Shown here: one piece after another, positions 7,780 to 45,275 of the stretch
Layout of the letters: the number at the start of each line of letters is the position of its first letter
Position numbering within the stretch: position 1 is the first letter of the stretch
NCBI GenBank assembly: GCA_003480165.1
Contig: QUIQ01000014.1
Location: 1-45,442, forward strand
Length of the DNA: 45,442 bases
Direction of reading: 5' to 3'
Origin: Firmicutes bacterium AM41-11
GTDB taxonomy: Bacteria > Bacillota_I > Bacilli_A > Erysipelotrichales > Erysipelotrichaceae
Translations under genes and position numbers: made by a program
The notes under the pieces: model-generated
What the model saw: the letters and a program-made list of their open reading frames with translations, nothing else
Told to the model about the DNA's origin: nothing
Database searches by the model: none

Positions 7780-7802
7780 AAAAAAGCCCACAACCGTGAG
7801 CT
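7780..7802 (-). terminator. Terminator at the end of the 14-gene hyd/hyp/nif-like operon
   Basis: AGCTCAC and GTGGGCT (minus strand, 7785-7802) form a 7-bp stem with one G-T pair and a GGTT loop, followed by six Ts. The stem includes the stop codon of the last operon gene. Confidence 0.85.
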
Positions 7803-8052
7803 ATTCCTCTATGGCCTGTTCAATAGCTTGCGCTAGTTGATCGGCACAAGATGTTGATTTTGTACCACAAAGATTTCCTCTTAAAAGCGCACTTGCTTCT
7901 TTAGCATCGCGGCCTTCCAGTAATTTACCAATGGCAGATAGATTGCCAGGGCAACCTCCATCAAAATGCACTTGATGTAATTTCCCATCTTCAATCGAAA
8001 AATGGATTTGGCGGGCACATACACCCTTTGGTTGATATGTATAAGTTTTCAT
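7801..8052 (-). CDS. TSCPD-domain protein (TIGR03905-like), last gene of the operon
   Basis: An 83-residue protein beginning MKTYTYQPKGVCAR. It has four cysteines in short motifs: GVCA, GGCPGN, NLCG and TSCAD. The TSCPD domain is known from the C-terminus of B12-dependent ribonucleotide reductases and from small stand-alone proteins of unknown function. The start at 8052 is chosen because family members begin there; a longer frame would run deep into the upstream gene. It begins 23 bases after the beta-1 stop and is followed at once by the operon terminator, so it is co-transcribed with the maturation genes. The cysteines suggest metal binding, which is inference. Confidence 0.75.
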   Translation of the reverse strand: MKTYTYQPKGVCARQIHFSIEDGKLHQVHFDGGCPGNLSAIGKLLEGRDAKEASALLRGNLCGTKSTSCADQLAQAIEQAIEE

Positions 8053-8075
8053 ACGTCTAGTATACCTTCTCTTTT

Positions 8076-9218
8076 TTAAAAATCCAATTGGTCCTTTAAC
8101 CAATTTGAAAAACTTGGGCCAATTAAAACAGGCATTTGTTCTTTGTACATTCTTCCCGAATACCCCCAATGTGGTAAAGGGATAAAATGCGTCGTCTTAT
8201 TTTCTAACAAGCGCTGATAGATGGGATCGGCAATCACAAGTTTGGCCGCATTCATCTTTTTTTGGATGAGATCTTCTTGATCCCAGCATACATCATCTTC
8301 ACTCAGACCTACTTGTACTTCCAAAGGACACAGGATTTGCACATCTTTATACCCAAATTCTTCCTGCAAACAAGTTCGTAAAGCCTGCATACAAACCGAT
8401 TCCCCAATCAAAAGAACTTTGCCGTTTCCCGCCTTTACTGGTTTTGGCGTTTGTAAAGGATGGTGGATTTGTTCCGCCAATTGGATGGCTTGTTTTTCTC
8501 CCATGGGAATACCTACGACATAAGGAATCCCCCATGTTTCGGCAAAATATTTAGCAACGTCGATAGCACTGGAAGAAAGTACTAGATTCACATCAGCTGC
8601 TAAAGCCTTTTGCATCTGTTCAAAAGAAGTTCCCATCGACCAATTAGAAACAATGGTAAAACCCTGATCCTTACACCAAGCCTCCAATGCTTCTACATTG
8701 CCAGAGTAGCCAAAATCTAGTGGCGTACAACCCAGTAGATTGATACCAATTCCAGTATGTTCTTTTGGCACCGGCTGACAGAAACGTTTCGCAAAAGCCA
8801 AGTAAGCTTGATTGCTTCCACACACATAACTTGCCATGCCCGAAGTTGAAAAGCCGAAACAAGGAAGCTTGGTTTCCTGTTCAATATAGTGGGCAATCCC
8901 TTTAAAATCGGTTCCGATTGCCAAGGCAATAGGGGAACCAAAAAGGGCAATAAAGTTAGGCTGCGTTTCATTGGCAGCTTCAATGACTTCTTCAATCAAT
9001 TTATCATCGTTACCCAATATCGCATCATATTCTTCTAAGGCTGAGATAAAAATCAAGCTATGCATTTTCGCCCAGCGTGGTTCATCATGGGTCGCATAAG
9101 TTGAATTACAACCCGAAGCATCATGCATGATGATCAAACCACCCAATTCATACAAAGCCGAATTAATGCCCGCTAAATCAGCTGCATAATTTGCTGTTTT
9201 TCGCATTACTTGTTTCAT
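8076..9218 (-). CDS. Nitrogenase-like component 1, beta-type subunit (module 1)
   Basis: A 380-residue protein of the nitrogenase component 1 superfamily (NifD/K/E/N, Bch/Chl, Cfb relatives). The N-terminal region has LYELGGLIIMHDASGC with Cys37 at the place of the first cluster-binding cysteine of NifK-type subunits, then DEPRW at 45-49 and AILGNDDKL. At the usual second cysteine site it reads LFGSPIALAIGTDF, with no cysteine. The start ATG at 9218 overlaps the alpha-1 stop (ATGA) and follows AAGGGG; a GTG nine bases earlier is less likely. It is a clear paralogue of the gene at 15784-16815: Cys37 and DEPRW have identical positions in both. Confidence 0.8.
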   Translation of the reverse strand: MKQVMRKTANYAADLAGINSALYELGGLIIMHDASGCNSTYATHDEPRWAKMHSLIFISALEEYDAILGNDDKLIEEVIEAANETQPNFIALFGSPIALAIGTDFKGIAHYIEQETKLPCFGFSTSGMASYVCGSNQAYLAFAKRFCQPVPKEHTGIGINLLGCTPLDFGYSGNVEALEAWCKDQGFTIVSNWSMGTSFEQMQKALAADVNLVLSSSAIDVAKYFAETWGIPYVVGIPMGEKQAIQLAEQIHHPLQTPKPVKAGNGKVLLIGESVCMQALRTCLQEEFGYKDVQILCPLEVQVGLSEDDVCWDQEDLIQKKMNAAKLVIADPIYQRLLENKTTHFIPLPHWGYSGRMYKEQMPVLIGPSFSNWLKDQLDF

Positions 9219-10513
9219 ACAATGCACCCCTTAGCTTTTATTGATAAAATAGCTTCCGCATCTTTCGGATAGATATAGGCATCAAATAGATCCTTGGCCA
9301 GTTTGCGAATGCCCACAAAGCCATAATATCCATCATTAGCTACCATATTCACAAAATACTGGGTTCCCGAAAAATACGTCGCCTTTTGTCCAATTGCCAG
9401 AATCTTTTCTTGCTTAGCTTCATCACAAGCCCATAAACGACAGCGAAAATCCACCGTTGCCCGAATCAATAAATCTGGATAATGAACTTTTAACCAGTCT
9501 AGAGCCTTTTGTTCTCCCGGCAAAAGCGTATCCATATAAACGACCCGGACATGAAAGCCATGTTCTAGTAAGAGCTTCGCTAAACCTAAAGGTCGTGGCG
9601 TAGCTGTATAGTCAATTTGAATGGGCGTATCTTTGATTTTCTTTTGCACCTGCCGTAAGGCTTTATGTGCCATCTGTTCATATCGCGTAAAATCAATACA
9701 AGGAATGTGACAGGCTTGGGCAATCTTTTGAAGATTTGCTTTGATTTCATCCATATCCCATGTATAGGGCGCATACAACAATTTTTGCCCTAAGCGTTTT
9801 TCTAAATCTTTTCCGCATTCCAAGGCAACGGGCATCGTTACAATCGCATAGGAGGCCTGCGCCAGACCTTTGTATTCTTCATAGCTTTCCATTCCACAAA
9901 GATCTTGGAAATCCCAACCATTCTGCCAAAACATCTGGACTAGTTCACTATCCACATCCAAAGGGAAATAATTTCCTACCACATGAACCATTTTCGGATT
10001 CTTTTTTGTGTTTTTTAAGGGTGCATAGAGTTGCCGCATTGTCACTTCTTCAAAATGCAATTTACTCTTACGCATCGTACAGTTCATGGAATTTTCAATA
10101 AAATCGATTTGCGGATAACGTTCACACAAGGCTTTAAAAACCAAATTGGTATCCATGGCCATAAAATGATGAATACAGCTCGTATAAAGCATGGCACAGG
10201 GTGGCAGGATTTCTTTATGGTCTAAAATGTCACATACACCATCGATAAACAATTGTTCCAGCTTTCCCTCATACAGGTCTTGTTCTTTGATAGTCACCAT
10301 CGCAAAACGATCCAAGCCGCCAAATTCTGCCGCACTTAAAACTACTCCCCGCAAACAACCTTCTGGACAGACAAAGATTTCCATCGCTTCCGGAATCAAC
10401 ATCGGCGTATGAGCAATCGTCCAAGTCCCTCTAGCTGGTACAGAAAACTCCAGACCAGCATGAAAAAAAGGTGGGTCTGGCAATTGTGCCAGAGTATATT
10501 CGGCCTTAGCCAC
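9215..10513 (-). CDS. Nitrogenase-like component 1, alpha-type subunit (module 1)
   Basis: A 432-residue protein of the nitrogenase component 1 superfamily. [17 protein letters not shown] carries Cys53 and [12 protein letters not shown] carries Cys113; these match two of the cluster-binding cysteines of NifD-type subunits. I cannot recognise the FeMo-cofactor ligands (Cys275 and His442 of NifD), so nitrogen fixation is unlikely. The start is GTG at 10513, overlapping the NifH-1 stop by eight bases, with AAGGAG six bases upstream; an in-frame TTG at 10531 has no such site. It should pair with the beta gene that follows and receive electrons from the NifH-like protein before it. Confidence 0.8.
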
Positions 10514-11267
10514 GATCTTCTCCTTGCGCAATGAGTGCTTTAGCTAAGTTTCGATAACGTTGGGCGGCTTCACTCTTTGGATAAGCTTCTAAAACCGTTT
10601 GATGTTTTTCATCTGCCTCTGGTACTAAGGGATCAAACGCTAATTGACCAAGAACCGTACAATCCATATCCTGACAGAGTTGCTGAATCCGCTCTTGTTC
10701 GTTTTTCACATTCCGTTGATTCACAATTAAACCACCTAATGTGGCATAGCCTCGCTTTTGAAAAGTATCTACAGCTAAACCAATATTCTTTGCTGCATGT
10801 ATGGCCATTGCTTCTCCAGAAGTTAAGATAAAAACCTGGTCGGCATAGCCTTCCCGAATAGGCATCGAAAAACCACCACAGACAACATCTCCCAATACAT
10901 CAAACAAAACGACATCGGGACGATAGATTTCATAGGCTTTTTTATCCATTAATAATTCCATTGCGGCAATAATGCCTCGTCCGGCACAACCTAGCCCTGG
11001 GGTAGGACCACCGGCTTCGACAATATACACCCCTTTATACCCTTGGGTTACAACTTGGTCTAAGCTTAGGTCTTGATTCATTTCCCGAAGGCAATCTAAT
11101 ACGGTCGCTTTGGCTTTTCCATGGCGTAGATTAATTGTGGAATCGGCTTTGGGATCACAGCCAATTTGCATCACCGTATACCCCATTTCAGCTAAAGCAA
11201 CTGAAAAATTGGAAACCGTTGTCGATTTACCAATGCCACCTTTTCCATAAAACGCAAATTTATACAT
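10506..11267 (-). CDS. NifH-like ATPase/reductase (module 1)
   Basis: A 253-residue nitrogenase iron-protein homologue. The P-loop GKGGIGKST is at residues 8-16, CDPKADST at 37-44, GLGCAGRG with Cys94 and [10 protein letters not shown] with Cys130; these two cysteines are the conserved ligands of the bridging [4Fe-4S] cluster in the NifH dimer. It is therefore predicted to be an ATP-driven electron donor, not just a scaffold. The ATG at 11267 has AGGAG seven bases before it and lies 10 bases after the hypE stop. It is a paralogue of the gene at 18071-18823, and each NifH-like gene precedes its own alpha/beta pair. Confidence 0.9.
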
Positions 11268-11277
11268 GGCTCTTCTC

Positions 11278-12276
11278 CTAACAAATGCGGGGTAATAATT
11301 CCCCGGTTGGTTGTGGCAAAATTGTCTGGGCTCCAAATGGTGTATGGACAACGACCTTGCCAACATTTTCTTCCGTCACTTCTCCAATAATTGCTGCCAT
11401 TTCATTCTTTTCTTTTAAAACAGCTAAAATCGCTTCGGCTTGCTGAGCTGGAACAACGACAACCATGCGTCCTTCACAAGCCAGATACAAAGGTTCTAAA
11501 CCTAAGAATCCACAAACGCCTTTTACTGAATCCATCACGGGAATTTGATCTTGGTACAAACGAATTCCCACTTGGGATTCAGCTGCAATTTCATATAAGA
11601 CGGTACCAACGCCACCTCGAGTCGCATCGCGAATACAATGCAGGTCGGTCGTCGTCGCAATCATCGCTTCTACTGTATGCCATAATTCTTGACAGTCACT
11701 CGTTACATCAGCTTGAATCGAGAAATGATTCCGAGCTAGTAAAATCGTACAACCATGACGTCCAATATCGCCAGTCACTAAAATCTTATCGCCGGCTTTG
11801 GCATTGGCACCACTGACTTGGATACCTGGTTGAATTTCTCCGACTCCTGTGGTCGTAATAAATAAGCCATCGACTTGGCCTTTCCCAACAACTTTGGTAT
11901 CACCGGCCACAAAGTGCACACCAACTTTATGGGCAATTTCCTGCATGGATTGGACAATCTTTTCCAGTTTTTCGATTTCAAAACCTTCTTCAATTTGAAA
12001 AGAGCAAGTCATATATTGGGGTTTTGCTCCCATGCAAGATAGATCGTTCACGGTTCCACAAACTGATAACTCACCGATATTTCCGCCTGGAAAAAAGCTT
12101 GGAGAAACCACAAAGCCATCGGTTGACATGGCCATTTTCCCTTTTGGTGCCTGCAAGACAGCGGCATCATCGCCCGTAAAATCGGGATTATCTAAATATT
12201 TTTTAAAAATAGAGCCAATCAAGGAAGCTGTTTGTGCGCCTCCTGCTCCATGTGCTAAGGTAATTACTTTTTCCAT
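11278..12276 (-). CDS. hypE: Hydrogenase maturation protein HypE
   Basis: A 332-residue protein of the AIR synthase/thiamin-monophosphate-kinase fold. HypE dehydrates a carbamoylated C-terminal cysteine to a thiocyanate, which supplies the cyanide ligands of the active-site iron. The essential C-terminus is intact (LPRIC, ending in cysteine), and the ATP site ([10 protein letters not shown]) and [11 protein letters not shown] are present. Known partners are HypF and the HypCD complex, both encoded upstream. There is no hypA or hypB nearby, so a nickel-insertion step is not indicated by context. Confidence 0.95.
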
Positions 12277-12285
12277 TTTCTATCC

Positions 12286-13323
12286 TCACTTTATCGCATA
12301 CTTATAATAGGCTGAACAAGCCCCTTCATTGGAAACCATACAAGCGCCAATCGGATGCTCTGGGGTACAACCTTTTCCATAGACCGGACACTGTTCAGGC
12401 GTACATTCTCCCTTTAAGATATCCCCACAGCGACACAAAGGATTGGCTTTGCCTAACCCAGGCTGTAAGGCATATTTCTTTTGCGCATCAAAGGCGGCAT
12501 ATGCATTTTTTAAACGCAGTCCAGATTGCGGAATCACACCCAGTCCACGCCATTGACTATCTACTGGTTCCATCACCGAAGCAATTAATTCGCGACCGGA
12601 TTTTGAGCCTTCCTGACTAACCACTCTAGGATAACAATTCACAAAGAAAGGTTCGCCTTTTTCATAACGTTTGATGATAACGGCAAGGGCCATAATGAGT
12701 TCTGATGCCGTAAAGCCAGCAACCACTCCAGAAATACCCTGCTTTTTTAGATCCTCATAGATTTGACATCCCGTAATGGTTGCGACGTGTCCGGGATATA
12801 AGAAGACATCGGCACTATCTTTTAAGGCTAGATACGCTTGATCCATGGTCTTATTTGCCACCAGCAAAGAAAAATTCTTTAAGCCATCCACTTGGGCATT
12901 ACGGACGGCCATACAAGCTAGTGGGGTCGTTGTCTCAAAGCCCACAGCTAAAAAGACAACTTTTTCCTCAGGATGCGCTTTTGCGTAAGCTTCGGCTTCT
13001 AAAGGCGAAAAGACCATTTCGATTTTAGCGCCCTTACTACGTGCTTTTTGTAGGGACGAGTGCGTACCAGGAACCCGAATCAAATCTCCAAAGGTACAAA
13101 TCGTACAATGGTGGACTTCAGCTAATTCAATCGCTTGATCAATATAATCAATCGGGGTAACACAAACTGGACATCCCGGACCGGAAATCAAATGAATGGA
13201 TGGCGGTAAAATTTGGCGAATTCCCAGACGAAAGATTTCATGGGTATGGGTTCCACATACTTCCATAATGCGAATAGGTTTGCCTTGATAGCCTTTGACA
13301 ATTTCTAAAGCTTGCGAATTCAT
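12286..13323 (-). CDS. hypD: Hydrogenase maturation protein HypD
   Basis: A 345-residue Fe-S protein which, with HypC, is the scaffold for the Fe(CN)2CO group. Conserved signatures are VCGTHTHEI (Cys23), GPGCPVC (Cys51, Cys54), VFLAVGFETTTPLA and a cysteine-rich C-terminal region from PLCRCGD to GACSAYYKY that holds the [4Fe-4S] site. All key cysteines appear intact. The ATG overlaps the hypC stop (TAATG), so HypC and HypD are probably made in step. Length is normal for the family. Confidence 0.95.
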   Translation of the reverse strand: MNSQALEIVKGYQGKPIRIMEVCGTHTHEIFRLGIRQILPPSIHLISGPGCPVCVTPIDYIDQAIELAEVHHCTICTFGDLIRVPGTHSSLQKARSKGAKIEMVFSPLEAEAYAKAHPEEKVVFLAVGFETTTPLACMAVRNAQVDGLKNFSLLVANKTMDQAYLALKDSADVFLYPGHVATITGCQIYEDLKKQGISGVVAGFTASELIMALAVIIKRYEKGEPFFVNCYPRVVSQEGSKSGRELIASVMEPVDSQWRGLGVIPQSGLRLKNAYAAFDAQKKYALQPGLGKANPLCRCGDILKGECTPEQCPVYGKGCTPEHPIGACMVSNEGACSAYYKYAIK

Positions 13324-13532
13324 TAAAGCAATTCCTCCATTAAGGATTGTTCTTCGCTTTGATCATCCCCATTGATTTTGGCGATAGCTGCGCCCGCATG
13401 CACCATTACGTAATCTCCCGGTTCTAAGTCTTCTATCAATTCACTGGATACGGTTGTGATAGCTCCGGTTGCATCTACGACAGCCATACCATCTTTTACT
13501 TTTTTTACTTTTGCGGGTAATCCGACACACAT
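13323..13532 (-). CDS. hypC: Hydrogenase maturation chaperone HypC
   Basis: A 69-residue OB-fold chaperone beginning MCVGLPAKV. Cys2, exposed after removal of Met1, is the iron-binding residue in HypC proteins, and the conserved histidine of VMVHAG is also present. In [NiFe] systems HypC carries the Fe(CN)2CO unit with HypD and delivers it to the hydrogenase large subunit; no large subunit is encoded here, so the recipient is unknown. A strong AGGAGG precedes the ATG at 13532, which lies inside the 3' end of hypF. Confidence 0.95.
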   Translation of the reverse strand: MCVGLPAKVKKVKDGMAVVDATGAITTVSSELIEDLEPGDYVMVHAGAAIAKINGDDQSEEQSLMEELL

Positions 13533-15787
13533 ACTTTTGTCCTCCTGATATTTTCCATTCCATAATACGCTTGGCCTAGTCCGATACCCCCATCATTGCT
13601 GCTGGACAGCTTATGGGTCAAGACAGTAAAGCCTTGCGCTTCTAATTCTTCTTTACATAATTTCAATAATAAAACATTCTGCATGACACCACCGGATAAA
13701 ACCACCATTTTACTTTGGGTTTGCCTAGATGCCTGCAGCGCACCTTCACAGATCCAATGAGCTAAAACGACATGGAAGGTATAAGCCAGGCACGCAATAT
13801 CTTCTCCACTTTTTTTAGCCTGAGCTAAAAAGGTGCATAAAGCTTTCATTGGCAAGATAAAAAAGTCAGCTTCTTGCATAGATATTGGAACGTCTAGTGC
13901 CTTACCTTGATAGCTTTCTGCTGCAAATTGTAAGACCATGGAAGCTTCGGCTTCACAAGTATTGACTTTCCGTAGTCCTAAAATGGCACTAACGGCATCA
14001 AAATAGCGTCCGGCACTTGTCGAAGTAACCGTATTGATTTTCATCGCTTTACACTGAAGAATCAATTCGGCTTGATCTTGGAAACAAAGGTCTAAGCCTT
14101 GCCAATCTTCTTTATCTAAAATCGATACGGCATTTCGCCATCCTTCTTTACTGGAAAGATCGCCTCCAACTTGTTCAAAGGGTTCCAGACTTCCTACTCG
14201 TTTAAAGGTATGCGTATCACAAATAAAGAATTCTCCACCCCATATGGTTCCATCTAAACCATAGCCGGTTCCATCAAAACTGATGCCAATGACTTCTTGA
14301 TCAATTTGATGTTCTGCCATACAAGACAGGATATGCGCATAATGATGTTGGCATTCTAAGACCGGTCGGCCTAATTCATAAGCCAGTTGACGGGATTGAT
14401 AGGCCGGATGCATATCGCAAACAATCAGCTCGGCGCGCATTTCTAACAATTCTTCCATGCGTTCAATGGCTTCTTTAAGTGCTTGAACACTGCGAATATC
14501 CGATAAATCGCCAATATACGGGCTTGGATAGTACAAATCTTTAGCCGCCAGACAGAACGTATTCTTTAGTTCTCCACCAATCCCAAGTACCACCGAATCG
14601 CCTTTTTTATGCATCATAAAAGGGAGTGGGGCATAACCACGGGAACGTCGAATCATCATTGGCTGATGGTCAAACCAAGATAGTACACTATCATCGGCAC
14701 GTAGACGAATCGGACGATTATTGGAAAGCACAAGATCACAAATATCGGATAAGTTCTCTATAACATCCTGGTCGGTACGACAAATCGGAGCCCCTTTCGG
14801 ATTGGCACTTGTCATAACTAGACAATCTGGCATATCTATTTCATCGGGATAATCAAAGAGTAATAACTGTACCGGCGCATAGGGCAAGATCAAACCAATA
14901 TTGGGATTATCTGGTGCTACTTCGGGTACAATTTTTCCCGCTTTCTTTTTTAGTAACAAGATGGGTTTCTGATACCCATCTAAGACTTCTTCTTGGCCAT
15001 CGCGAATCTCCGCTTCCCGACGGGCTACTTCCATATTGCGAACCATGACCGCAAAGGGTTTAAAAGGTCGATTCTTAATAGTTCGTAAACGCTGTACAAC
15101 TTTCGGATTGGTCGCATCGCAACAAAGGTGGAAACCTCCAATCCCCTTAATGGCCACAATGCCACCTTGTACAATGGTTTGGCGCGTTTGCCGTAAAGCA
15201 TCCTTACCATGCACATCTTGGCCAACTAAATACAGCTCTGGTCCACAATCGTTGCAACAAACTGGTTGGGCATGATAGCGACGACTTGTGATAGAGGTAT
15301 ATTCTTTTTCACAACTTGGGCACATCGGGAAATCTTTCATGCTGGTACGAACGCGATCATAAGGCATTGAATCCAAGATCGTTAAACGTGGTCCACAAGC
15401 GGTACAATTGATAAACGGATGTAGATAGCGCCGATTGCTTGGATCAAACAATTCTCTTTGGCAATCCGGACAAATCGCAATATCGGGAGATACAAAGATA
15501 TCCCCTTTTACTTTTTGCGAGTGTAGAATTTGAAAGTTCCTCTCTTCTTGAACGGGCAAAGTTTTTTCTTCAATTTTTAGAATGGCAGAACGACTCGGTG
15601 CCAACGCTTCTAAGTCCTTACGAAAAGCCGCAACTTGTTCCTTGCTGGCCTGTACATGAATTTCTACATAGGGACCTTTGTTACAAACCGTGCCAGTACA
15701 TCCATTCTTTTTCGCAATGCGATCGACAAAGGGACGAAAACCTACCCCTTGTACAATTCCTACAACGCGATATTCTTTTCGGATCAT
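13505..15787 (-). CDS. hypF: Carbamoyltransferase HypF
   Basis: A 760-residue protein with the full HypF domain order: N-terminal acylphosphatase domain (IVQGVGFRPF, residues 11-20), two zinc fingers starting at CPDC and CPSC (each CX2C-X18-CX2C), a YrdC/Sua5-like domain (GGIVAIKGIGGFHLCCDATN) and a C-terminal Kae1-like carbamoyltransferase domain with the metal-binding HHYAH. HypF uses carbamoyl phosphate and ATP to carbamoylate HypE, the source of the cyanide ligands. The ATG at 15787 overlaps the beta-2 stop (ATGA). No domain is missing. Confidence 0.95.
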   Translation of the reverse strand: MIRKEYRVVGIVQGVGFRPFVDRIAKKNGCTGTVCNKGPYVEIHVQASKEQVAAFRKDLEALAPSRSAILKIEEKTLPVQEERNFQILHSQKVKGDIFVSPDIAICPDCQRELFDPSNRRYLHPFINCTACGPRLTILDSMPYDRVRTSMKDFPMCPSCEKEYTSITSRRYHAQPVCCNDCGPELYLVGQDVHGKDALRQTRQTIVQGGIVAIKGIGGFHLCCDATNPKVVQRLRTIKNRPFKPFAVMVRNMEVARREAEIRDGQEEVLDGYQKPILLLKKKAGKIVPEVAPDNPNIGLILPYAPVQLLLFDYPDEIDMPDCLVMTSANPKGAPICRTDQDVIENLSDICDLVLSNNRPIRLRADDSVLSWFDHQPMMIRRSRGYAPLPFMMHKKGDSVVLGIGGELKNTFCLAAKDLYYPSPYIGDLSDIRSVQALKEAIERMEELLEMRAELIVCDMHPAYQSRQLAYELGRPVLECQHHYAHILSCMAEHQIDQEVIGISFDGTGYGLDGTIWGGEFFICDTHTFKRVGSLEPFEQVGGDLSSKEGWRNAVSILDKEDWQGLDLCFQDQAELILQCKAMKINTVTSTSAGRYFDAVSAILGLRKVNTCEAEASMVLQFAAESYQGKALDVPISMQEADFFILPMKALCTFLAQAKKSGEDIACLAYTFHVVLAHWICEGALQASRQTQSKMVVLSGGVMQNVLLLKLCKEELEAQGFTVLTHKLSSSNDGGIGLGQAYYGMENIRRTKVCVSDYPQK

Positions 15788-16815
15788 ACGCTTAGTGCCT
15801 CTTTTACTTGCGCCCAATAGGTGACATCACTTTCCACTTGATACATTTGTCCGGATACCGCAAAATGCGGTAAGCTGACCATTTGTCCGGTAAATCCCTG
15901 ACAAGCCCGTAAAAATAATGGATCGCCAATAATTCTTTCATAAGCATTTTCTTTTACCATACCAATCAAATCCATCTCTCCTTCTAAGAAACGATCGTTG
16001 GCTTGCATATATTCTGGATCCATTGGAAAGAAAGAAGCAACATCTCCCATTCCAATGGCTTCCCGCAATGCATTGGCAAGGATCTGCTGGTGCAGGATCA
16101 AAGTCTTTTTCTTTTTCACTTGCCACTTACCAAGACAATAATCAAAATGGAAGTTCAAACCAAGTTCTTTGGCTATTGTAAGACCGGATGGAGATAGAAC
16201 AATGTTTTCTTTACAAGCCGCGATTTTCGTATAATTTTCTAGCGAATCATCCATGCCAAACGGAATGCATTTTTTTCCTAAGCGCTGCATCAAAGCTTGT
16301 ACACTATCTAAGCTTGGTAGATCCAAAGGGGAACAACCCCATAAACCAATGCAGTCTTCGCTCGGTTTTTCCTCAACACAATTGATAAGGGCTCGATAAG
16401 CTTTGACTTGACCATAGGTATAATCTTTCATTCCGGTCGTCTCAATGTAAATGCTCTTTTTATGGAAACGTTTTTCACACATCCGGCAAAGCGCCGTGTA
16501 ATCTGTTGCGATTACAGCGGGTACAGGGGTTCCAATCAAGGCAATAAAACGGGCTTCCGGTACACTTTCTAAAGCCTGGCCAATTTTATCTAACAGTTTT
16601 TCATCGCGTCCGAGTATCGCATCTAAGTCTCTTAAACCAGCTGAATAGATGGCACTGGACTTGGTGTACCAACGTGGTTCATCAAAGCCACAAGTATTTC
16701 CGGTACATCCTCCGGCATCACAAATGACAATCAATCCTCCCAGTTCAAACAAGACGGAAACTGCACCCGATATATCTGGGGCAAAGGGAGATAAATAACG
16801 ATATAAATCTTTCAT
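15784..16815 (-). CDS. Nitrogenase-like component 1, beta-type subunit (module 2)
   Basis: A 343-residue paralogue of the module 1 beta subunit. FELGGLIVICDAGGCTGNTC puts Cys37 in the same position as in module 1, with extra cysteines at 32 and 42, then DEPRW at 45-49 and AILGRDEKL. The usual second cysteine site reads LIGTPVPAVIATDY, again without cysteine. At 343 residues it is much shorter than NifK or NifN. The ATG at 16815 overlaps the alpha-2 stop (ATGA); a longer frame would only add residues overlapping alpha-2. It should form a heteromeric complex with alpha-2. Confidence 0.8.
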   Translation of the reverse strand: MKDLYRYLSPFAPDISGAVSVLFELGGLIVICDAGGCTGNTCGFDEPRWYTKSSAIYSAGLRDLDAILGRDEKLLDKIGQALESVPEARFIALIGTPVPAVIATDYTALCRMCEKRFHKKSIYIETTGMKDYTYGQVKAYRALINCVEEKPSEDCIGLWGCSPLDLPSLDSVQALMQRLGKKCIPFGMDDSLENYTKIAACKENIVLSPSGLTIAKELGLNFHFDYCLGKWQVKKKKTLILHQQILANALREAIGMGDVASFFPMDPEYMQANDRFLEGEMDLIGMVKENAYERIIGDPLFLRACQGFTGQMVSLPHFAVSGQMYQVESDVTYWAQVKEALSV

Positions 16816-18074
16816 AGACAATTCCTCATTTCCGCAATTAGATCTTGAAGGCCTTGATAGCCAAAAGGTTGTTCTTCTTGATTCCAAGGTACACAAGGCA
16901 CATCTGGATAGAGCATACCTGCATCTTTTCCAATGGTTAAATCGATATCTTGACGGGCTTGATAATGAACCATGGATGGTGAAATTCCTGTATATACTTG
17001 CGTATTTGGCGAAACTTTTGCCAGACGCTGAATCGTCTTTTTATCATTTTGCGTGACATTGGAAAAAATCTCCATAATTTCAAAACCTAATTCCGATAAT
17101 GCACACGCTAGTTCAAATGGATTGGCATCCAACATTTCGCCAATCACAAGCTTCTTTCCTTGAAAGATAGAACGAGCTTCTTGCACGATTTGTTTTGTTT
17201 CTAAATAATAACTTGTGTCATCCATCACAACGCCGATAGCCTTGGCGAACAGTTGATATAAACGATGAATTCGTTCTACTTCATATAAGCGAGGAAATTC
17301 AATATATGGCATACCTAAACGCTGATTTAAATCCTGGGCAGCATAATTACTTTCAGGATATAAAACCAAATTAAAATTGGCATTCCCCATTTCCATATAT
17401 TCTTCTAAGGTCTTCTTCTCCGCTACTTGATGAATGGTTTGAATACCGGCTTGATGCAAGAGTTCAAACAGTTCACTTTCCGGATTTAAACAAGAGAAGA
17501 AACCTAATAAATTGATTGCTTTTGGATCAACCGTTTTGCGTTCCAGTAAAGAATAGATCGTTTGACGAATTGCAGTCATAGGTGGCTTACGCCCTTCTCT
17601 TTCCAGAGCATACATATAGCTTGGCACAATATGTACCCCCGTTTGTTGTTCTATCTTTTGTGCAATGGATTCTAAATCGGTTGCCAATAGAGCATCGACA
17701 CAAGTAATACAGATTACGACAACTTTAGCCGGAGCGACTTCCAAGATTTCTTGGACCGCTTGCGATAACTTGCGTAAATGTCTTCCGGTAACTAAATCGG
17801 TTTCATTCATTAAAAGATAGAACATGCGATCAGCATAGCCTTCTTCTTGCGATAAAATGGTAGAATTTCTTCCACAACTTGCCGGACTTACTAACAACAT
17901 CACACTTTCTGGAATGACCAAGCCGGCTCGTTTTACCCCAAAGCCAATGGCACCGGGTGAATTATATGCCAGGGTCGCAGGGGCTGAGTAAATCAAATGG
18001 CAGGCGGGAATATATTCGGATGGAATATGTTCTGCCTGGGCAAGTTGTTCAATCGTACGATAAAAAGCTTTCAT
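16812..18074 (-). CDS. Nitrogenase-like component 1, alpha-type subunit (module 2)
   Basis: A 420-residue nitrogenase component 1 homologue, paralogous to the module 1 alpha subunit. [14 protein letters not shown] (Cys67) and [16 protein letters not shown] (Cys125, with Cys122 nearby) match the two cluster cysteines of module 1. The ATG at 18074 overlaps the NifH-2 stop codon (ATGA) and has GGGAG eight bases upstream. No typical FeMo-cofactor ligand pattern is recognised. The two cysteines here plus one in the beta partner could hold an interfacial [4Fe-4S] cluster as in dark-operative protochlorophyllide reductase (inference). Confidence 0.8.
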
Positions 18075-18823
18075 AGACTTTGCTCCCATAGGCATTTGGC
18101 TAAATTGATAAATCGTTGGCTAACTGGATCATTGGCATTGCCTTCCACAAGGGTTTTCCCTTGATCTTCAAATTCGTTGATGGCATCACTTCGTGGAATA
18201 TCCGCTACGATTTCCAACCCCCGCTCTTGGGCAAAGGCTGCCACTTTATTTTCTTCATTGGGTACATTTCGGCGATTGAGAATCAAGCCTTTAACTTTGG
18301 CATAACTGCGATCTTTAAAGTTTTCTACGGCTGTATAAATATTATTTGCCGCATATAAGGCCATCTTTTCCCCACTTGTCACAATGAGGACTTGATTGGC
18401 ATAGCCTTCACGAATCGGAACCGCAAAGCCACCACAGACTACATCCCCTAAGACATCGTATAAAACGACATCCGGCTTCTCTTTTTCAAAGAGCTCTAAT
18501 TCTTCCAATAAGGAAAAAGTTGTGATGATGCCTCTACCCGCACAGCCTAAGCCTGGAGTAGGTCCACCGGTTTCAATACAACGTACGCCTCCATACCCGA
18601 TTTTCATAATTTCTTCTAAACTTGGATCTTCATCATGGTCTCGTAAATAATTCATCACCGGCATGACCCCATCCCCATGTAAGAGTTGAATGGTTGAATC
18701 GGCTTTGGGATCACAGCCAATTTGAATCACTTTTTTACCTAATTGAGAAAATGCAGCAGCTAGATTGGAAGTGATGGTTGACTTTCCAATGCCGCCTTTT
18801 CCATAAATTGCACATTTTAACAT
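18071..18823 (-). CDS. NifH-like ATPase/reductase (module 2)
   Basis: A 250-residue NifH homologue with P-loop GKGGIGKST at residues 8-16, CDPKADST at 37-44, Cys94 in GLGCAGRG and Cys130 in [10 protein letters not shown], in exact register with module 1. An ATP-dependent, [4Fe-4S]-carrying homodimer is predicted. AAAGGTG precedes the ATG. It follows the TM1266-like gene by two bases and overlaps alpha-2. Having two full NifH copies, each tied to its own alpha/beta pair, suggests two different reductive steps. Confidence 0.9.
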
Positions 18824-18825
18824 AT

Positions 18826-19068
18826 CTACACCTTTGTCAACATGGACTTTACTTGTACATGTTCAATTCTTCCTAATTGCCCGGTTAAGGCATTAATTTT
18901 GTCATTGGGTCCATCCACAATCAAAGAAATCATAGAAACATTTCTTTCGCGATAGGGGATTCCCATTCTTCCGACAACTAAGTCGGCATACTGATGAATG
19001 CACTGATTCACTTTTACAGCTTGTTCTAAATCTTCAATAATAATCGCAATCATGCCTAATCGATTCAT
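18826..19068 (-). CDS. TM1266-family protein ('iron-only hydrogenase system regulator')
   Basis: An 80-residue ACT-like/ferredoxin-fold protein ([20 protein letters not shown], then [20 protein letters not shown]). This small family is annotated as a putative regulator of [FeFe] hydrogenase because it is usually found beside hydE, hydF and hydG; its function is unproven. The ATG at 19068 is chosen for the strong GGAGG five bases upstream. An attenuator-like hairpin lies directly before that site, so this gene and all those after it may be expressed conditionally. Its presence ties the nif-like and hyp genes to [FeFe]-hydrogenase biology. Confidence 0.85.
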
Positions 19069-19072
19069 ATTA

Positions 19073-19145
19073 CCTCCAAAAAAGACTCTTTCCATAACGA
19101 AAAGAGTCTCGGTATGACTGCTTTCCGTTTGGAATACCTTACGGT
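19073..19145 (-). promoter_or_regulatory. Candidate transcription attenuator or riboswitch between hydF and the TM1266 gene
   Basis: In the 84-base gap, a perfect 9-bp stem (AGACTCTTT 19101-19109 with AAAGAGTCT 19083-19091, 9-base loop) followed by five or six Ts looks like an intrinsic terminator just before the ribosome binding site. Upstream, CGGAAAGCAGTC (19116-19127) can pair with GACTCTTTTCG (19098-19108) with one bulge, which would destroy the terminator. GGTAT (19134-19138) with ATACC (19111-19115) can form a third helix enclosing the antiterminator's 5' arm. Mutually exclusive helices are typical of attenuators. I do not recognise a known riboswitch class. Confidence 0.55.
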
Positions 19146-19152
19146 CAGGGGT

Positions 19153-20331
19153 CTAATATTTTCCTTCTAAACATGCCAGGGCTCTATGTAAGATACCATG
19201 CATGTGGGCAATTGCGGTGCCATAGTTGGTCATCGCGATGCCTTGTTCTAACGCTTGTTTATTTCTTTGGTTCATTTCTTTTTCGTTCAACATACATCCT
19301 CCACAATGGATAATGCAGTCAAACGAAGAAAGATCTTCGGGGAACTCTCTGCCAGAAGTGAATTGATAAGAGACCTTTTTCTGGGTATACTGATCAATCC
19401 AGTTTGGTAATTTTTGGGTTCCGATATCGCCACATTGACGATGGTGTGTACAACCTTCCGAAATCAAGATATGCGCATCTTCTGGTAAATGATCCAGATA
19501 GAAAGCGCCTTGCACAGCTTGGGCTAAAATGCCTTTATAACGTGCCATTAAGATAGAAAAAGACGTCAATGGCAAGGTTTCTGGAACAATCTTGGCTACT
19601 TTTTCAAAACGTTGGGAATCGGTAATCACAAGTTTTGAATCCTTTACACTATCTAATAAGGATTCTAGTTGATCATCCTGACAAACTAAGGCACAAGCCC
19701 CATGGTCGAGTAAATCTCGAATGACCATCTGTTGCGGAAGAATCAAACGTCCTTTCGGTGCCGCAGAATCAACGGGCACAACTAAGATGACACGATCTGC
19801 TGGCTTGACTAGATCACCAACTAAAGGATGATGGTTTTCCTTACCTTTAGCTAATTGACCAATGCGCTCTTTTAGCAATTCAATATTGGTCTTATTTTTC
19901 GCACTGACCCAAATTTGATGGGGATCAAGCTTAGTTTGTAGATCACATTTATTATACACGACAAGATAAGGAATCTCGCGTTCTTTAAACAGGGCAATTA
20001 ATTCATTATCCAGGGTTTGCAGACCTTTATTCCCATCAACAACTAAGATGGCCACATCGCATTCCTTTAAAATGGAACGGGTTTTTTCCACACGCAACTG
20101 ACCAAGATGACCTGTATCATCAAATCCTGGTGTATCGATAATCACAACGGGTCCTAAGGGTAAAAGCTCCATCGCCTTGCGAACGGGATCGGTCGTTGTA
20201 CCGGAATAATCACTGACAACAGATAGATTTTGATTCGTTACGGCGTTCACTAATGAAGACTTCCCGGCATTTCGCATGCCAAAAAATGCGATATGGATTC
20301 GTTCTGCAGAAACAACATCATTTAGACTCAT
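19153..20331 (-). CDS. hydF: [FeFe] hydrogenase maturation GTPase HydF
   Basis: A 392-residue protein with an N-terminal GTPase domain (P-loop GMRNAGKSS at 18-26, IDTPGFDD, NKCD) and the C-terminal HydF cluster motif: CTH, 45 residues, then HCGGC, matching CXH-X44-53-HCXXC. HydF is the scaffold and carrier that holds the [2Fe] subcluster precursor before transfer to the hydrogenase HydA. ATGs at 20337 and 20331 are both possible; 20331 has better spacing from GGAAGG and starts like known HydF. It overlaps the end of hydE. hydG and hydA are not in the window. Confidence 0.93.
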   Translation of the reverse strand: MSLNDVVSAERIHIAFFGMRNAGKSSLVNAVTNQNLSVVSDYSGTTTDPVRKAMELLPLGPVVIIDTPGFDDTGHLGQLRVEKTRSILKECDVAILVVDGNKGLQTLDNELIALFKEREIPYLVVYNKCDLQTKLDPHQIWVSAKNKTNIELLKERIGQLAKGKENHHPLVGDLVKPADRVILVVPVDSAAPKGRLILPQQMVIRDLLDHGACALVCQDDQLESLLDSVKDSKLVITDSQRFEKVAKIVPETLPLTSFSILMARYKGILAQAVQGAFYLDHLPEDAHILISEGCTHHRQCGDIGTQKLPNWIDQYTQKKVSYQFTSGREFPEDLSSFDCIIHCGGCMLNEKEMNQRNKQALEQGIAMTNYGTAIAHMHGILHRALACLEGKY

Positions 20332-21394
20332 ATTCATCGCCTTCCTTCCATGGTCGAATTTGTCCAATGTCGGTTACGACATGATATTGAATGGATTCCA
20401 TTCTTCTTTCCAGGCAATGTCGGCATTGCCCGCTCTCATCGCCAATACAGATCTTATTGTCATACAATTGGTATTTTCGGCGTACCGAAACAGGGCTCAA
20501 ATTGGGCATCACTACATTGGCACCGGCTAATACACCTTTTTCCCGTCCTTTAGGATCAAGGGTTCCTAAAGCTGTTGTTGCGGGCAATAAAATATTTGGT
20601 TGAATTAAACGAATGATACTTAGTAAGAAAAGTGTAGTTTCCACACTTCCTGCAGGATAGTCTTTAAAGGGGGTTTGATGGCTGGGAATAAATGGCCCAA
20701 TACCACACATTTCCGGGCGAAATGTTTCAATGAATTTACAATCCATTGCCAGATCTTTTTCCGTTTGAAAAGGCGACCCGACCATCATGCCAATTCCCAC
20801 ATCATAGCCGATGTCACGTAAATCTTGAATGCACTGCATGCGGTCTTCAAAGTGCATGGCTTTCGGATGAAGTTTTTGATAATGTTGGGGATTTGCGGTT
20901 TCATGACGCAACAAATAGCGATTGGCACCTGCCTCAAAAAGCTTTTGATAACTTTCTTTACTTCTTTGTCCGACAGAAAGCGTAATCGCACAATCGGGAT
21001 AACTTTGATGGATGTTGGAAACAATATCGCATAAACGCTCATCGGTAAAATAACCATCTTCTCCGGATTGGAGCACAAAGGTACGAAATCCCAGTTCATA
21101 GCCTTCTTGGCAACAAGCTAAGATATCTTCTTTATCTAGACGATACCGCGAACAAGGACTGGACTTACGAATTCCACAATATAAACAATCGTTTTTACAG
21201 ATGTTAGAAAATTCAATCAATCCGCGTACAAATATATCTTTGCCATAAATCGAACGAGCTACACGGCTGGCTTTATGGGCACAATATTCTTGTATGGCAG
21301 CATCTTGATGTTGAATTAAATAGGTATATTCTTCTAGAGATAAAGTATGTTCTCGGCTCAACTTATCTATATATTCTATACTTTTTGTATTCAT
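20318..21394 (-). CDS. hydE: [FeFe] hydrogenase maturation radical SAM enzyme HydE
   Basis: A 358-residue radical SAM protein. CKNDCLYC (Cys66, 70, 73) is the CX3CX2C SAM-cluster motif, preceded by the HydE-typical DIFVRGLIEFSNI. A second C-terminal motif CX7CX2C (Cys316, 324, 327) matches the extra cluster site seen in some HydE proteins. HydE acts on the iron-CO-cyanide synthon normally made by HydG when building the [2Fe] subcluster. It is first in the 14-gene operon, with TGAGGT before the ATG and the Rex-controlled promoter directly upstream. PylB/BioB-like relatives are less likely given the hydF partner. Confidence 0.93.
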   Translation of the reverse strand: MNTKSIEYIDKLSREHTLSLEEYTYLIQHQDAAIQEYCAHKASRVARSIYGKDIFVRGLIEFSNICKNDCLYCGIRKSSPCSRYRLDKEDILACCQEGYELGFRTFVLQSGEDGYFTDERLCDIVSNIHQSYPDCAITLSVGQRSKESYQKLFEAGANRYLLRHETANPQHYQKLHPKAMHFEDRMQCIQDLRDIGYDVGIGMMVGSPFQTEKDLAMDCKFIETFRPEMCGIGPFIPSHQTPFKDYPAGSVETTLFLLSIIRLIQPNILLPATTALGTLDPKGREKGVLAGANVVMPNLSPVSVRRKYQLYDNKICIGDESGQCRHCLERRMESIQYHVVTDIGQIRPWKEGDEYESK

Positions 21395-21403
21395 ATCTAC
21401 CTC

Positions 21404-21421
21404 ATGTGAAGTTTTTCACAA
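21404..21421. promoter_or_regulatory. Rex operator at the hyd/hyp/nif-like operon promoter
   Basis: ATGTGAAGTTTTTCACAA matches the Rex consensus TTGTGAA-N4-TTCACAA at 13 of 14 fixed positions. It begins four bases downstream of the -10 box and covers the expected start site, a classic repressor position. Rex senses NADH/NAD+ and typically represses fermentation and hydrogenase genes in Firmicutes. A CRP/FNR-type half-site reading (TGTGA-N6-TCACA) also fits; Rex is favoured because it is the usual Firmicute user of this motif. Confidence 0.75.
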
Positions 21422-21425
21422 CGCT

Positions 21426-21454
21426 ATTCTAACAAACTTGTTGGTTGCCATCAA
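21426..21454 (-). promoter_or_regulatory. Sigma-A promoter of the 14-gene operon
   Basis: TTGATG (21449-21454), a 17-base spacer and TAGAAT (21426-21431) on the minus strand, located between the patatin terminator and hydE. The leader to hydE is only about 25 bases. Confidence 0.75.
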
Positions 21455-24643: not shown

Positions 24644-24665
24644 AAAAAAGAGCCGTGTGGCTCTT
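24644..24665 (-). terminator. Terminator of the lysine operon
   Basis: AAGAGCC and GGCTCTT (24648-24665) form a 7-bp stem with an ACAC loop, followed by a T-run. The downstream panE-like gene begins right after it, so it may be partly read through. Confidence 0.85.
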
Positions 24666-25350
24666 ATAATTGACGTAATGCGTCGACTAATTCGGTTTTT
24701 TGTTCAGCTTTGGCATCCTTTTCTTTAATGATGCGTGCTGGACATCCGGCTACAACCGTTCCGGCTGGTACATCTTCAATCACAATGGCTCCGGCTGCTA
24801 CAACGGCTCCCTTACCAACATGTACACCTTCTATCACAACGGCATTGGCGCCTACTAATACATCATCTTCAATAATGACTGGCGTTGCACTGGCAGGTTC
24901 TACAACCCCGGCAAGTACAGCTCCGGCACCAATATGACAGTGTTTTCCTACGGTAGCTCGACCACCTAAAACAGCACCCATATCAATCATAGTACCTTCA
25001 CCAATGATGGCACCAATATTAATGATGGCACCCATCATAATTACGGCATTGTCACCGATTTCTACATCATCGCGAATGATGGCACCGGGTTCGATCCGGG
25101 CATTGATATTTTTGGTATCTAATAAAGGAATCGCACTATTGCGCCCATCATTTTCAACGACGAAATCTTGGATTTCTTCTTTATGTGCTGCTAAGACGGG
25201 TTGAATATCTTTCCAGTCCCCAAATACGACATTGCCAAAGTTTTTACATCCTTCTGGAAAAGGGATGGGCTGGCTGGCTTTTAGATATACCTTCACATTG
25301 GTCTTTTTTTCTGCGGTTTGAATGCGTTTAATAATTTCTTCTGCGTTCAT
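24664..25350 (-). CDS. dapH: Tetrahydrodipicolinate N-acetyltransferase
   Basis: A 228-residue left-handed beta-helix acyltransferase: many hexapeptide repeats from about residue 90 to 200 ([20 protein letters not shown] and onward). It transfers an acetyl group to tetrahydrodipicolinate in the acetylase branch of lysine/meso-DAP synthesis. Length and N-terminus ([17 protein letters not shown]) fit DapH rather than succinyl-type DapD. It is last in the lysine riboswitch-controlled operon. The matching deacetylase is probably the divergent M20 gene at 29299-30393; the aminotransferase is not in the window. Confidence 0.92.
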
Positions 25351-29050: not shown

Positions 29051-29068
29051 AAAGTAAAACGTCCTTAA

Positions 29069-29220
29069 GATAGCTCTCCTACATTCGTAGACAGTCTTGT
29101 AGATCTTCTCTACAAGCCCACCATCCTTAAATGCCTTTAAGAACAGTTCGGCAAAATCGCTTCTATAAGAAATCTTTGCTTGCCAGCTCCTTCTTATATC
29201 GTCTTTTTTGCGCCTCTATC
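29069..29220 (-). ncRNA. Lysine riboswitch (L box)
   Basis: Read on the minus strand, the leader starts GATAGAGGCGC and ends GGAGAGCTATC, whose ends pair as helix P1. Conserved interior elements are seen: TTTGCCGAACTG, GGTGGGCTTGT and GACTGTCTACGAATGTAG. This matches the B. subtilis lysC leader in order and spacing. Lysine binding should favour the downstream terminator and so shut off lysA-dapFABH. Confidence 0.92.
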
Positions 29221-29229
29221 AGCGCATTC

Positions 29230-45000: not shown

Positions 45001-45275
45001 CCCAAGGACAAAAAAACTCGTCCTTCTAGTACAAAACTATCAAGGACGAGTAATAACCCGCGGTGCCACCTTAATTTACAGGAATCCCTGTACACTTATA
45101 GAATACAAACATATTCTTGATTGATTACGTTAATCACACGTCGTAGAGTACTCAGCATAACCTTTGACTACGCCCTCAGCGGTCCATTTGCGAACTTGTT
45201 ACTACTTAGATTCCACCATCCTAAGCTCTCTTTAAGCACATGTTTTCGTTTGATCTCCGCTTCATCGGTTTTGAT
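45001..45275 (-). ncRNA. tRNA-Trp T-box leader of the trp operon
   Basis: The T-box sequence AAGGTGGCACCGCG is at 45059-45072. The specifier loop is closed by GCGG/CCGC and carries TGG (45184-45186) followed by A, which reads as a tryptophan codon; the stem I element GGATGGTGGAA is also present. A terminator (45010-45051) follows and shares the T-box region. Uncharged tRNA-Trp should stabilise the antiterminator and turn on trpEGDCFBA. The leader fills the gene-free stretch between trpE and the promoter. Confidence 0.93.
45010..45051 (-). terminator. T-box-controlled terminator before trpE
   Basis: ACTCGTCCTT (minus strand, 45042-45051) pairs with AAGGACGAGT (45016-45025), followed by seven Ts. 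It is the off-state structure of the T-box. Confidence 0.9.

Follow-up and report, generated by a model that had tools for sequence, protein, structure and literature searches.

Gene content of the locus

The subject of this analysis is an operon of 14 genes on the minus strand of a stretch of DNA from Firmicutes bacterium AM41-11 (contig QUIQ01000014.1; 45,442 nucleotides, the whole of which is called the window below). An earlier note, made from the sequence alone, had described it as a combination of [FeFe] hydrogenase maturases, Hyp proteins and two nitrogenase-like systems, and curated profiles identified every member of the set, which occupies positions 7801-21394 in the order hydE, hydF, TM1266, nflH2A2B2, hypFCDE, nflH1A1B1 and TSCPD. 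The first three genes encode the radical S-adenosylmethionine (SAM) H-cluster maturase HydE (20318..21394; TIGR03956, 554 bits, cut-off 255), the H-cluster scaffold GTPase HydF with its dimer and tetramer domains (19153..20337; TIGR03918, 533 bits, cut-off 326) and a member of the TM1266 family, a putative regulator of the iron-only hydrogenase system (18826..19068; TIGR03959, 113 bits, cut-off 61). Between the two nitrogenase-like modules lie the genes for the carbamoyltransferase HypF (13505..15787; TIGR00143, 747 bits, cut-off 466), HypC (13323..13532; TIGR00074, 61 bits, cut-off 48), HypD (12286..13323; TIGR00075, 375 bits, cut-off 193) and HypE, which ends in PRIC (11278..12276; TIGR02124, 420 bits, cut-off 252). 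None of the 14 genes is hydG, hydA, hypA or hypB. The last gene, for a TSCPD protein (7801..8052; TIGR03905, 103 bits, cut-off 68), recurred in none of the 30 tabulated stretches of relative genomes; it is probably not part of the system, and a role for it was dropped from consideration.

The nitrogenase-like modules

Each module consists of a NifH-like Fe protein and an alpha/beta pair. Module 2 comprises nflH2 (18071..18823; Fer4_NifH, 290 bits, below the nifH cut-off), nflA2 (16812..18074; Oxidored_nitro, 122 bits) and nflB2 (15784..16815; Oxidored_nitro, 33 bits), and module 1 comprises nflH1 (10506..11267; Fer4_NifH, 296 bits), nflA1 (9215..10513; Oxidored_nitro, 39 bits), for which a GTG start was picked by its ribosome site with a TTG at 10531 as the alternative, and nflB1 (8076..9218; Oxidored_nitro, 103 bits). 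None of the six proteins reached the cut-off of any named NifHDKEN, DPOR or CfbC family that it matched. Their sequence neighbours in the Protein Data Bank (PDB) include NifE, VnfD and NifD, with NifE among the closest for both alpha subunits. Predicted models of moderate confidence (predicted local distance difference test, pLDDT, 72 and 78) matched nitrogenases, NifEN and methylthio-alkane reductase with template modelling (TM) scores of about 0.5-0.6 at 12-19% identity.

The Nfl proteins retain the P-loop and the two cluster cysteines of Fe proteins as well as the cysteines of the alpha/beta interface. Invariant cysteines are C55, C59 and C119 in alpha-1 and C37 in beta-1 (18 sequences each), C74, C129 and C132 in alpha-2 (14 sequences), and C37 and C42 in beta-2 (8 sequences). 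The C-terminal half conserves no cysteine or histidine except a C-terminal cysteine of alpha-1 (17 of 18). In NflH the P-loop and the second cluster-cysteine motif were found at 31 of 31 loci and the GC-GRG motif at 30 of 31 for each query, these counts being of the best match per locus for each query, so that one gene may count as both NflH1 and NflH2. The arginine of the GC-GRG motif is presumably the CO2-trapping arginine of Fe proteins. Such an arginine has been described for nitrogenase Fe proteins in the portion of PMC6747716 available, and according to the corresponding portion of PMC9571451 isolated nitrogenase Fe proteins reduce CO2 to carbon monoxide (CO) in vitro and also serve cluster assembly. 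Since the Fe-protein motifs are kept and Fe proteins reduce CO2 to CO, the most natural role for the Nfl modules would be that of a CO source or of a reductive assembly step.

Two further observations concern the alpha subunits. In isolate RUG534 (L002:9968-12385) the nflA2 frame continues into nflB2 to give an apparent alpha-beta fusion of 806 residues. Selenocysteine, suggested by TGA codons flagged in three alpha matches, was rejected, as the frames are open throughout (421-425 residues) and the TGA stands at the end of the match.

Conservation of the operon and a second variant

A first scan with nflA2 against the contigs of named genomes yielded seven loci. One, at 62% identity, is in Catenisphaera adipataccumulans, which NCBI places in the order Erysipelotrichales; the other six are in uncultured genomes, clostridial or Lachnospiraceae. 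Module 2 is present in all seven, module-1 genes in six of the seven stretches (not in L003), and hypFCDE in six, the contig of L004 ending before them. Two order samples were then used, namely 205 genomes of the order of Catenisphaera (Erysipelotrichales, the first order hereafter) and 373 Lachnospirales genomes. Several arrangements recur in these: hydA-nflH2A2B2-hypFCDE-nflA1B1-hydF-hydE in genomes G018, G020 and G030, where one Fe protein appears to serve both alpha/beta pairs; TM1266-hydF-hydE-nflH1A1B1-nflH2A2B2-hypFCDE in G498, G286 and G331, and likewise in G347 without a scored TM1266; and hydE-hydF-nfl1-nfl2-hypFCDE in G170. In G018, G020, G030 and G076 a hydA gene with intact H-cluster motifs directly adjoins the block. 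The stretches read from G002, G003, G004-G007, G540, G480 and G384 lack hydE. The earlier note had left it to a genome search whether the gene set is linked only in its source; stretches from both orders carry it in linked form.

We also noted a second variant, in which the stretch read has module 1 without module 2, in six HydE-positive, HydG-negative genomes of the first order (G124, G149, G153, G156, G171 and G194). These stretches carry hydF and TM1266, and five of the six carry hydE. The intervening genes encode a periplasmic binding protein, a FecCD permease and an ABC ATPase in G124, and similar-looking transporter genes, judged by their first residues, in the other five. Neither HypD nor a [NiFe] hydrogenase match was found in any of these six genomes. 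A transporter of this FecBCD type also adjoins some examined members of a separate nfl clade, 10 of whose 12 members lie in HydE-free genomes: at L150:7988-14178 and L154:6320-12602, free-standing clusters of NifH-like, alpha and beta genes have FecCD/ABC-like genes and one for a periplasmic binding protein as neighbours. Given that this mostly HydE-free clade adjoins the same kind of transporter, the transporter link may be older than the hydrogenase role.

Mutual exclusion with HydG

The CO and cyanide (CN) of the H-cluster are held to come from HydG, and the distribution of this enzyme provides the key point, which the earlier note had missed. All seven first relatives have an [FeFe] hydrogenase (PF02906), and none has a HydG above the 312-bit cut-off. 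Four genomes give best matches of 166-174 bits, which resemble ThiH; the one tested scored as ThiH above that family's own cut-off, and ThiH was discarded as a stand-in for HydG.

In the order samples HydG was counted as absent when, in the first order, no match above the cut-off reached E <= 1e-40 and when, in the Lachnospirales, none reached E <= 1e-90. In the first order HydE occurs in 28 of 205 genomes and HydG above the cut-off in 16, every one of them HydE-positive. The 28 divide into 16 with HydG and no nitrogenase-like match and 12 that lack HydG and have a linked module; every genome has one or the other and none the two together, so that the 12 lacking HydG are exactly the HydE-positive genomes with a nitrogenase-like alpha subunit. 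The other seven alpha matches of this order are in HydE-negative genomes; one of these is G076, where the contig breaks off within the operon, and the remaining six have other kinds of nfl. Among the 13 first-order genomes with nfl of the module-1/2 kind, HydG is found in none and an [FeFe] hydrogenase in all; the only match to HydG below the cut-off at E <= 1e-40 is in G014, which is not an nfl genome.

The Lachnospirales gave the same picture once the alpha subunits were resolved by phylogeny. The alpha-1 profile matched 41 and HydG was found in 163 of the 373 genomes; HydE was searched in 75, made up of the 41 alpha matches and 34 non-matches picked by number. Treating all nitrogenase-like alphas as one class was rejected: 17 of the 29 strong matches fall in a hyd-linked alpha-1 clade (support 100) and 12 outside it, 10 of the latter in HydE-negative genomes and one in G237, which has HydE and HydG together with nfl of the other clade. 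The hyd-linked alpha-1 proteins form one clade with support of 99 and 100. Within the Lachnospirales clade HydG is present in 0 of 17 genomes and HydE in 16 of 17, and the 46 HydE-positive genomes among the 75 comprise 16 of the alpha-1 clade, 29 with HydG and one with neither. Genomes G002, G003, G004, G006 and G007 are likewise nfl-positive, HydE-positive and HydG-negative. Across both variants, module 1 is thus what accompanies the loss of HydG throughout. Pooled, HydG occurs in 0 of 28 alpha-1/HydE genomes and in 45 of 46 other HydE genomes (Fisher p 1.5e-19; 3e-8 for the first order and 2e-11 for the Lachnospirales, all uncorrected for kinship).

On a tree of 78 HydE rows, which leaves out the partial HydEs of G492, G501 and G514, the nfl/HydG state changes eight times on the best tree. 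At least three of these changes are required by supported branches, and HydG and nfl change in opposite directions in every independent pair. This suggests that the nfl system and HydG were swapped several times in anaerobic Bacillota. The HydE of the window groups with that of Catenisphaera inside a mostly HydG-linked set (seven rows, five HydG-positive), and the positions that separate six HydG-positive sequences from HydG-negative ones number one in HydE (versus 20 sequences) and none in HydF (versus 18). From this placement and the near-absence of separating positions we therefore consider that HydE probably keeps its usual substrate. G170 has two HydE genes (L181 and L183), one in the nfl operon and the other elsewhere.

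The Hyp proteins and their client

The portion of PMC6802093 available describes CN as made from carbamoyl phosphate by HypE and HypF and carried by HypC and HypD. In the nfl-linked Hyp proteins most catalytic motifs persist: the C-terminal cysteine of HypE in 18 of 18 and the MC start of HypC in 19 of 19, while in HypD the motifs CGTHT and GPGCPVC are each found in 19 of 20. In L005, L006 and L007 the hypF match falls into two blocks, split near residue 640 and about 200-250 bases apart.

Of the 20 genomes with nfl-linked hyp genes in the stretches read, a [NiFe] large subunit was undetected in 17 and present in G347, G286 and G449; a main role of these HypFCDE in serving a [NiFe] hydrogenase was rejected on this count. 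Such matches are short ones of about 50 bits and fall at the N-terminus, the proteins themselves being about 360 residues long. First-order genomes that have HypD without nfl all have a [NiFe] match (6 of 6, in five on the contig of HypD), and their HypDs are 41-43% identical to that of the window, versus 58-68% for the nfl-linked ones.

A probable HydG-free route to the H-cluster

That linkage is kept in two orders, that several operons include hydA and, above all, that HydG is excluded support a single process directed to the H-cluster, and on this ground we think it probable that the operon serves to assemble the [FeFe] hydrogenase H-cluster with Nfl and Hyp proteins in place of HydG. The earlier note had proposed one process assembling an iron cofactor with CO and CN ligands, either for [FeFe] hydrogenase or for something new. 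The former client is the most likely of the two, given the HydG exclusion and the hydA genes in operons, and the idea of one process survives in narrower form, since TSCPD is not conserved and the second variant lacks both hypFCDE and module 2.

The route might run as follows. HypF and HypE would likely convert carbamoyl phosphate to a thiocyanate on the C-terminal cysteine of HypE, which would likely pass cyanide to iron held on HypC-HypD. NflH2A2B2 and NflH1A1B1 would act as ATP-driven low-potential reductases of the nitrogenase fold that supply CO, most simply by reducing CO2, and could help to convert the HypCD-held iron to a unit like the product of HydG, Fe(CO)2(CN). HydE would then make the two-iron precursor, which HydF would carry to HydA. 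In the second variant, with module 1, a FecBCD-type transporter and no HypD, import may supply the precursor or its ligands.

Several points weigh against this reading. All of its chemistry, namely the maturation of HydA by the operon, the sources of CO and CN and the order of the steps, is what we infer from gene content and context. As six HydE-positive, HydG-negative genomes are without HypD, HypFCDE cannot be the general source of CN. A [NiFe] match was found in 8 of 28 two-module genomes tested (20 of 27 have none, or 20 of 28 with G449 added), and the HypF motif QGVGFRPF is exact in just 10 of 20 nfl-linked proteins. G367 in the Lachnospirales has HydE without HydG outside the alpha-1 clade, its HydE being divergent and lower-scoring (335 bits). 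Kinship inflates the p-values given above: for the three independent pairs that are supported, a sign test gives p 0.25. HydA without HydE is common, occurring in 150 of 205 first-order genomes, which makes the presence of HydA alone a weak proof. The completeness of the sampled genomes, which is not given, bears on the absence counts, and the counts of hydG and hydA cover the relatives, only the window having been read for the source organism.

Beside the HydG-free assembly line, four other explanations were weighed. In the first, HydG is likewise replaced, with other chemistry: the Nfl alpha/beta pairs would be NifEN-like scaffolds or trimming enzymes that remodel an Fe(CN)2CO unit on HypCD, with CO coming from elsewhere in metabolism. 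The place of NifE among the closest solved relatives of both alphas, the part of Fe proteins in cluster assembly (in the portion of PMC9571451 available) and the Fe protein apparently shared by both pairs in three genomes would all fit it; the cysteine and histidine ligands of large cofactors are not evident beyond the single C-terminal cysteine of alpha-1, and module 1 is also found without HypD, and we regard it as unlikely, if still to be reckoned with. In the second, Nfl and Hyp would build a different, unknown CO/CN-ligated iron cofactor and share hydE and hydF with it, as the Nfl-Hyp blocks lying apart from hydE in G540, G480, G384 and the stretches of G002 and G004-G007 might suggest. 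Those of these genomes that were tested are nevertheless HydE-positive and HydG-negative, and the HydG exclusion and the hydA in the operon point to the H-cluster, which makes such a cofactor quite improbable.

A third explanation is that HydG is dispensable, the ligands coming from ThiH or from free CO and cyanide, and that Nfl performs unrelated sulphur, siderophore or tetrapyrrole processing co-regulated with hydrogen metabolism. It could draw on the roughly 1% activation obtained in vitro with HydE and HydF without HydG (PMC9431212, in the portion available), on the related nfl clade beside FecBCD-type genes in mostly HydE-free genomes and on the weak, ThiH-like HydG matches of four genomes. 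Since 28 of the 29 HydE-positive genomes without HydG in the two samples have the alpha-1 clade, and the single sub-cut-off HydG match of the first order is not in an nfl genome, we give it very little credence. To our knowledge HypFCDE are known for [NiFe] enzymes only, and three of the 20 genomes have a [NiFe] match, but with 17 without one and with the higher identity among nfl-linked HypDs, it is hardly credible that the hypFCDE genes are mere neighbours serving a [NiFe] hydrogenase.

Relation to known systems

The operon resembles the HydEFG system of [FeFe] maturation in its HydE, HydF and TM1266, all above their cut-offs, and in residues of HydE and HydF that are essentially those of HydG lineages; it differs in having two nitrogenase-like modules and HypFCDE instead of HydG. 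With the HypABCDEF system of [NiFe] maturation it shares HypF, HypC, HypD and HypE above their cut-offs, including the CN-forming cysteine of HypE and the cysteines of HypC and HypD, whereas HypA and HypB are lacking from the operon and the [NiFe] client is mostly missing from the genomes. An Fe protein with an alpha/beta pair is the arrangement of NifEN, nitrogenase and group IV (Nfl, Mar, CfbCD and DPOR), from which the operon proteins are set apart by scores below the named cut-offs, clades of their own, a maturase-like context and low identity. A further parallel is in clostridial acetogens, some species of which, in the portion of PMC9431212 available, have HydE, HydF and HypCDEF without HydG or HypAB; its authors wondered about unidentified mechanisms of ligand incorporation in acetogens without a found HydG, and that portion ties in no nitrogenase-like genes. 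Heliobacteria are described as having hydA and no hydEFG in the portion of PMC9147875 available. In full-text searches of an open-access library, as distinct from subscription papers and preprints, no paper linking nitrogenase-like proteins to HydG-free H-cluster assembly turned up.

In its full form, to which we give somewhat better than an even chance, the proposal is that biology has a third way of making Fe-CO/CN units, in which the Hyp cyanide machinery and nitrogenase-like reductases would replace the radical-SAM tyrosine lyase HydG, drawing the precursor from CO2 and carbamoyl phosphate, with an import variant that uses a FecBCD-type transporter and with several swaps with HydG in anaerobic Bacillota. 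If true, this would mean that a nitrogenase-like clade so far uncharacterised works in maturation, would account for the hydrogenase-bearing Bacillota that have hydE and hydF without hydG, and would offer a tyrosine-independent way of building [FeFe] hydrogenases. Where the CO and CN come from is testable by isotope-labelled infrared spectroscopy, and Catenisphaera adipataccumulans DSM 25799 carries the operon.

Transcription signals and other features of the window

The tight packing claimed in the earlier note holds for the junctions that are overlaps or gaps of 2-23 bases; the sole exception is the gap of 84 bases between hydF and TM1266, where a hairpin and its T run resemble a terminator or an attenuator (19078..19108, minus strand; the hairpin at 19084-19108 and the T run reaching 19078). 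Folding of the gap gives z = -2.8 and shows the hairpin in the centroid and not in the minimum-energy structure. The hairpin is not among the sites listed by a window-wide terminator scan, and the region 19066-19152 on the minus strand has no Rfam match at the gathering threshold. This hairpin may be a terminator, an attenuator or an RNA element and, given its T run and its place in that gap, two transcription units are possible.

Upstream of hydE, beside a promoter-like site, lies a Rex-like palindrome (21404..21421) with one mismatch to TTGTGANNNNNNTCACAA, and the scan placed a terminator-like hairpin at the end of the operon (7785..7802, minus strand). Across the window such sites occur at chance level, with 4 Rex-like sites of up to two mismatches versus 3.9 expected, 29 promoter-like sites versus 33.5 and 14 terminator-like sites versus 13.9; for this reason we go only as far as calling Rex control and a single transcript plausible.

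A PF02906 [FeFe]-hydrogenase protein is found in 178 of the 205 first-order genomes and HydE in only 28, and the ten HydAs fetched from HydE-free genomes (L157-L166) keep the second and third H-cluster motifs. Elsewhere in the window we noted a dapH-like gene (24664-25350), a lysine riboswitch (29063-29226, minus strand, 90 bits) and a T-box leader (45039-45274, minus strand, 105 bits).

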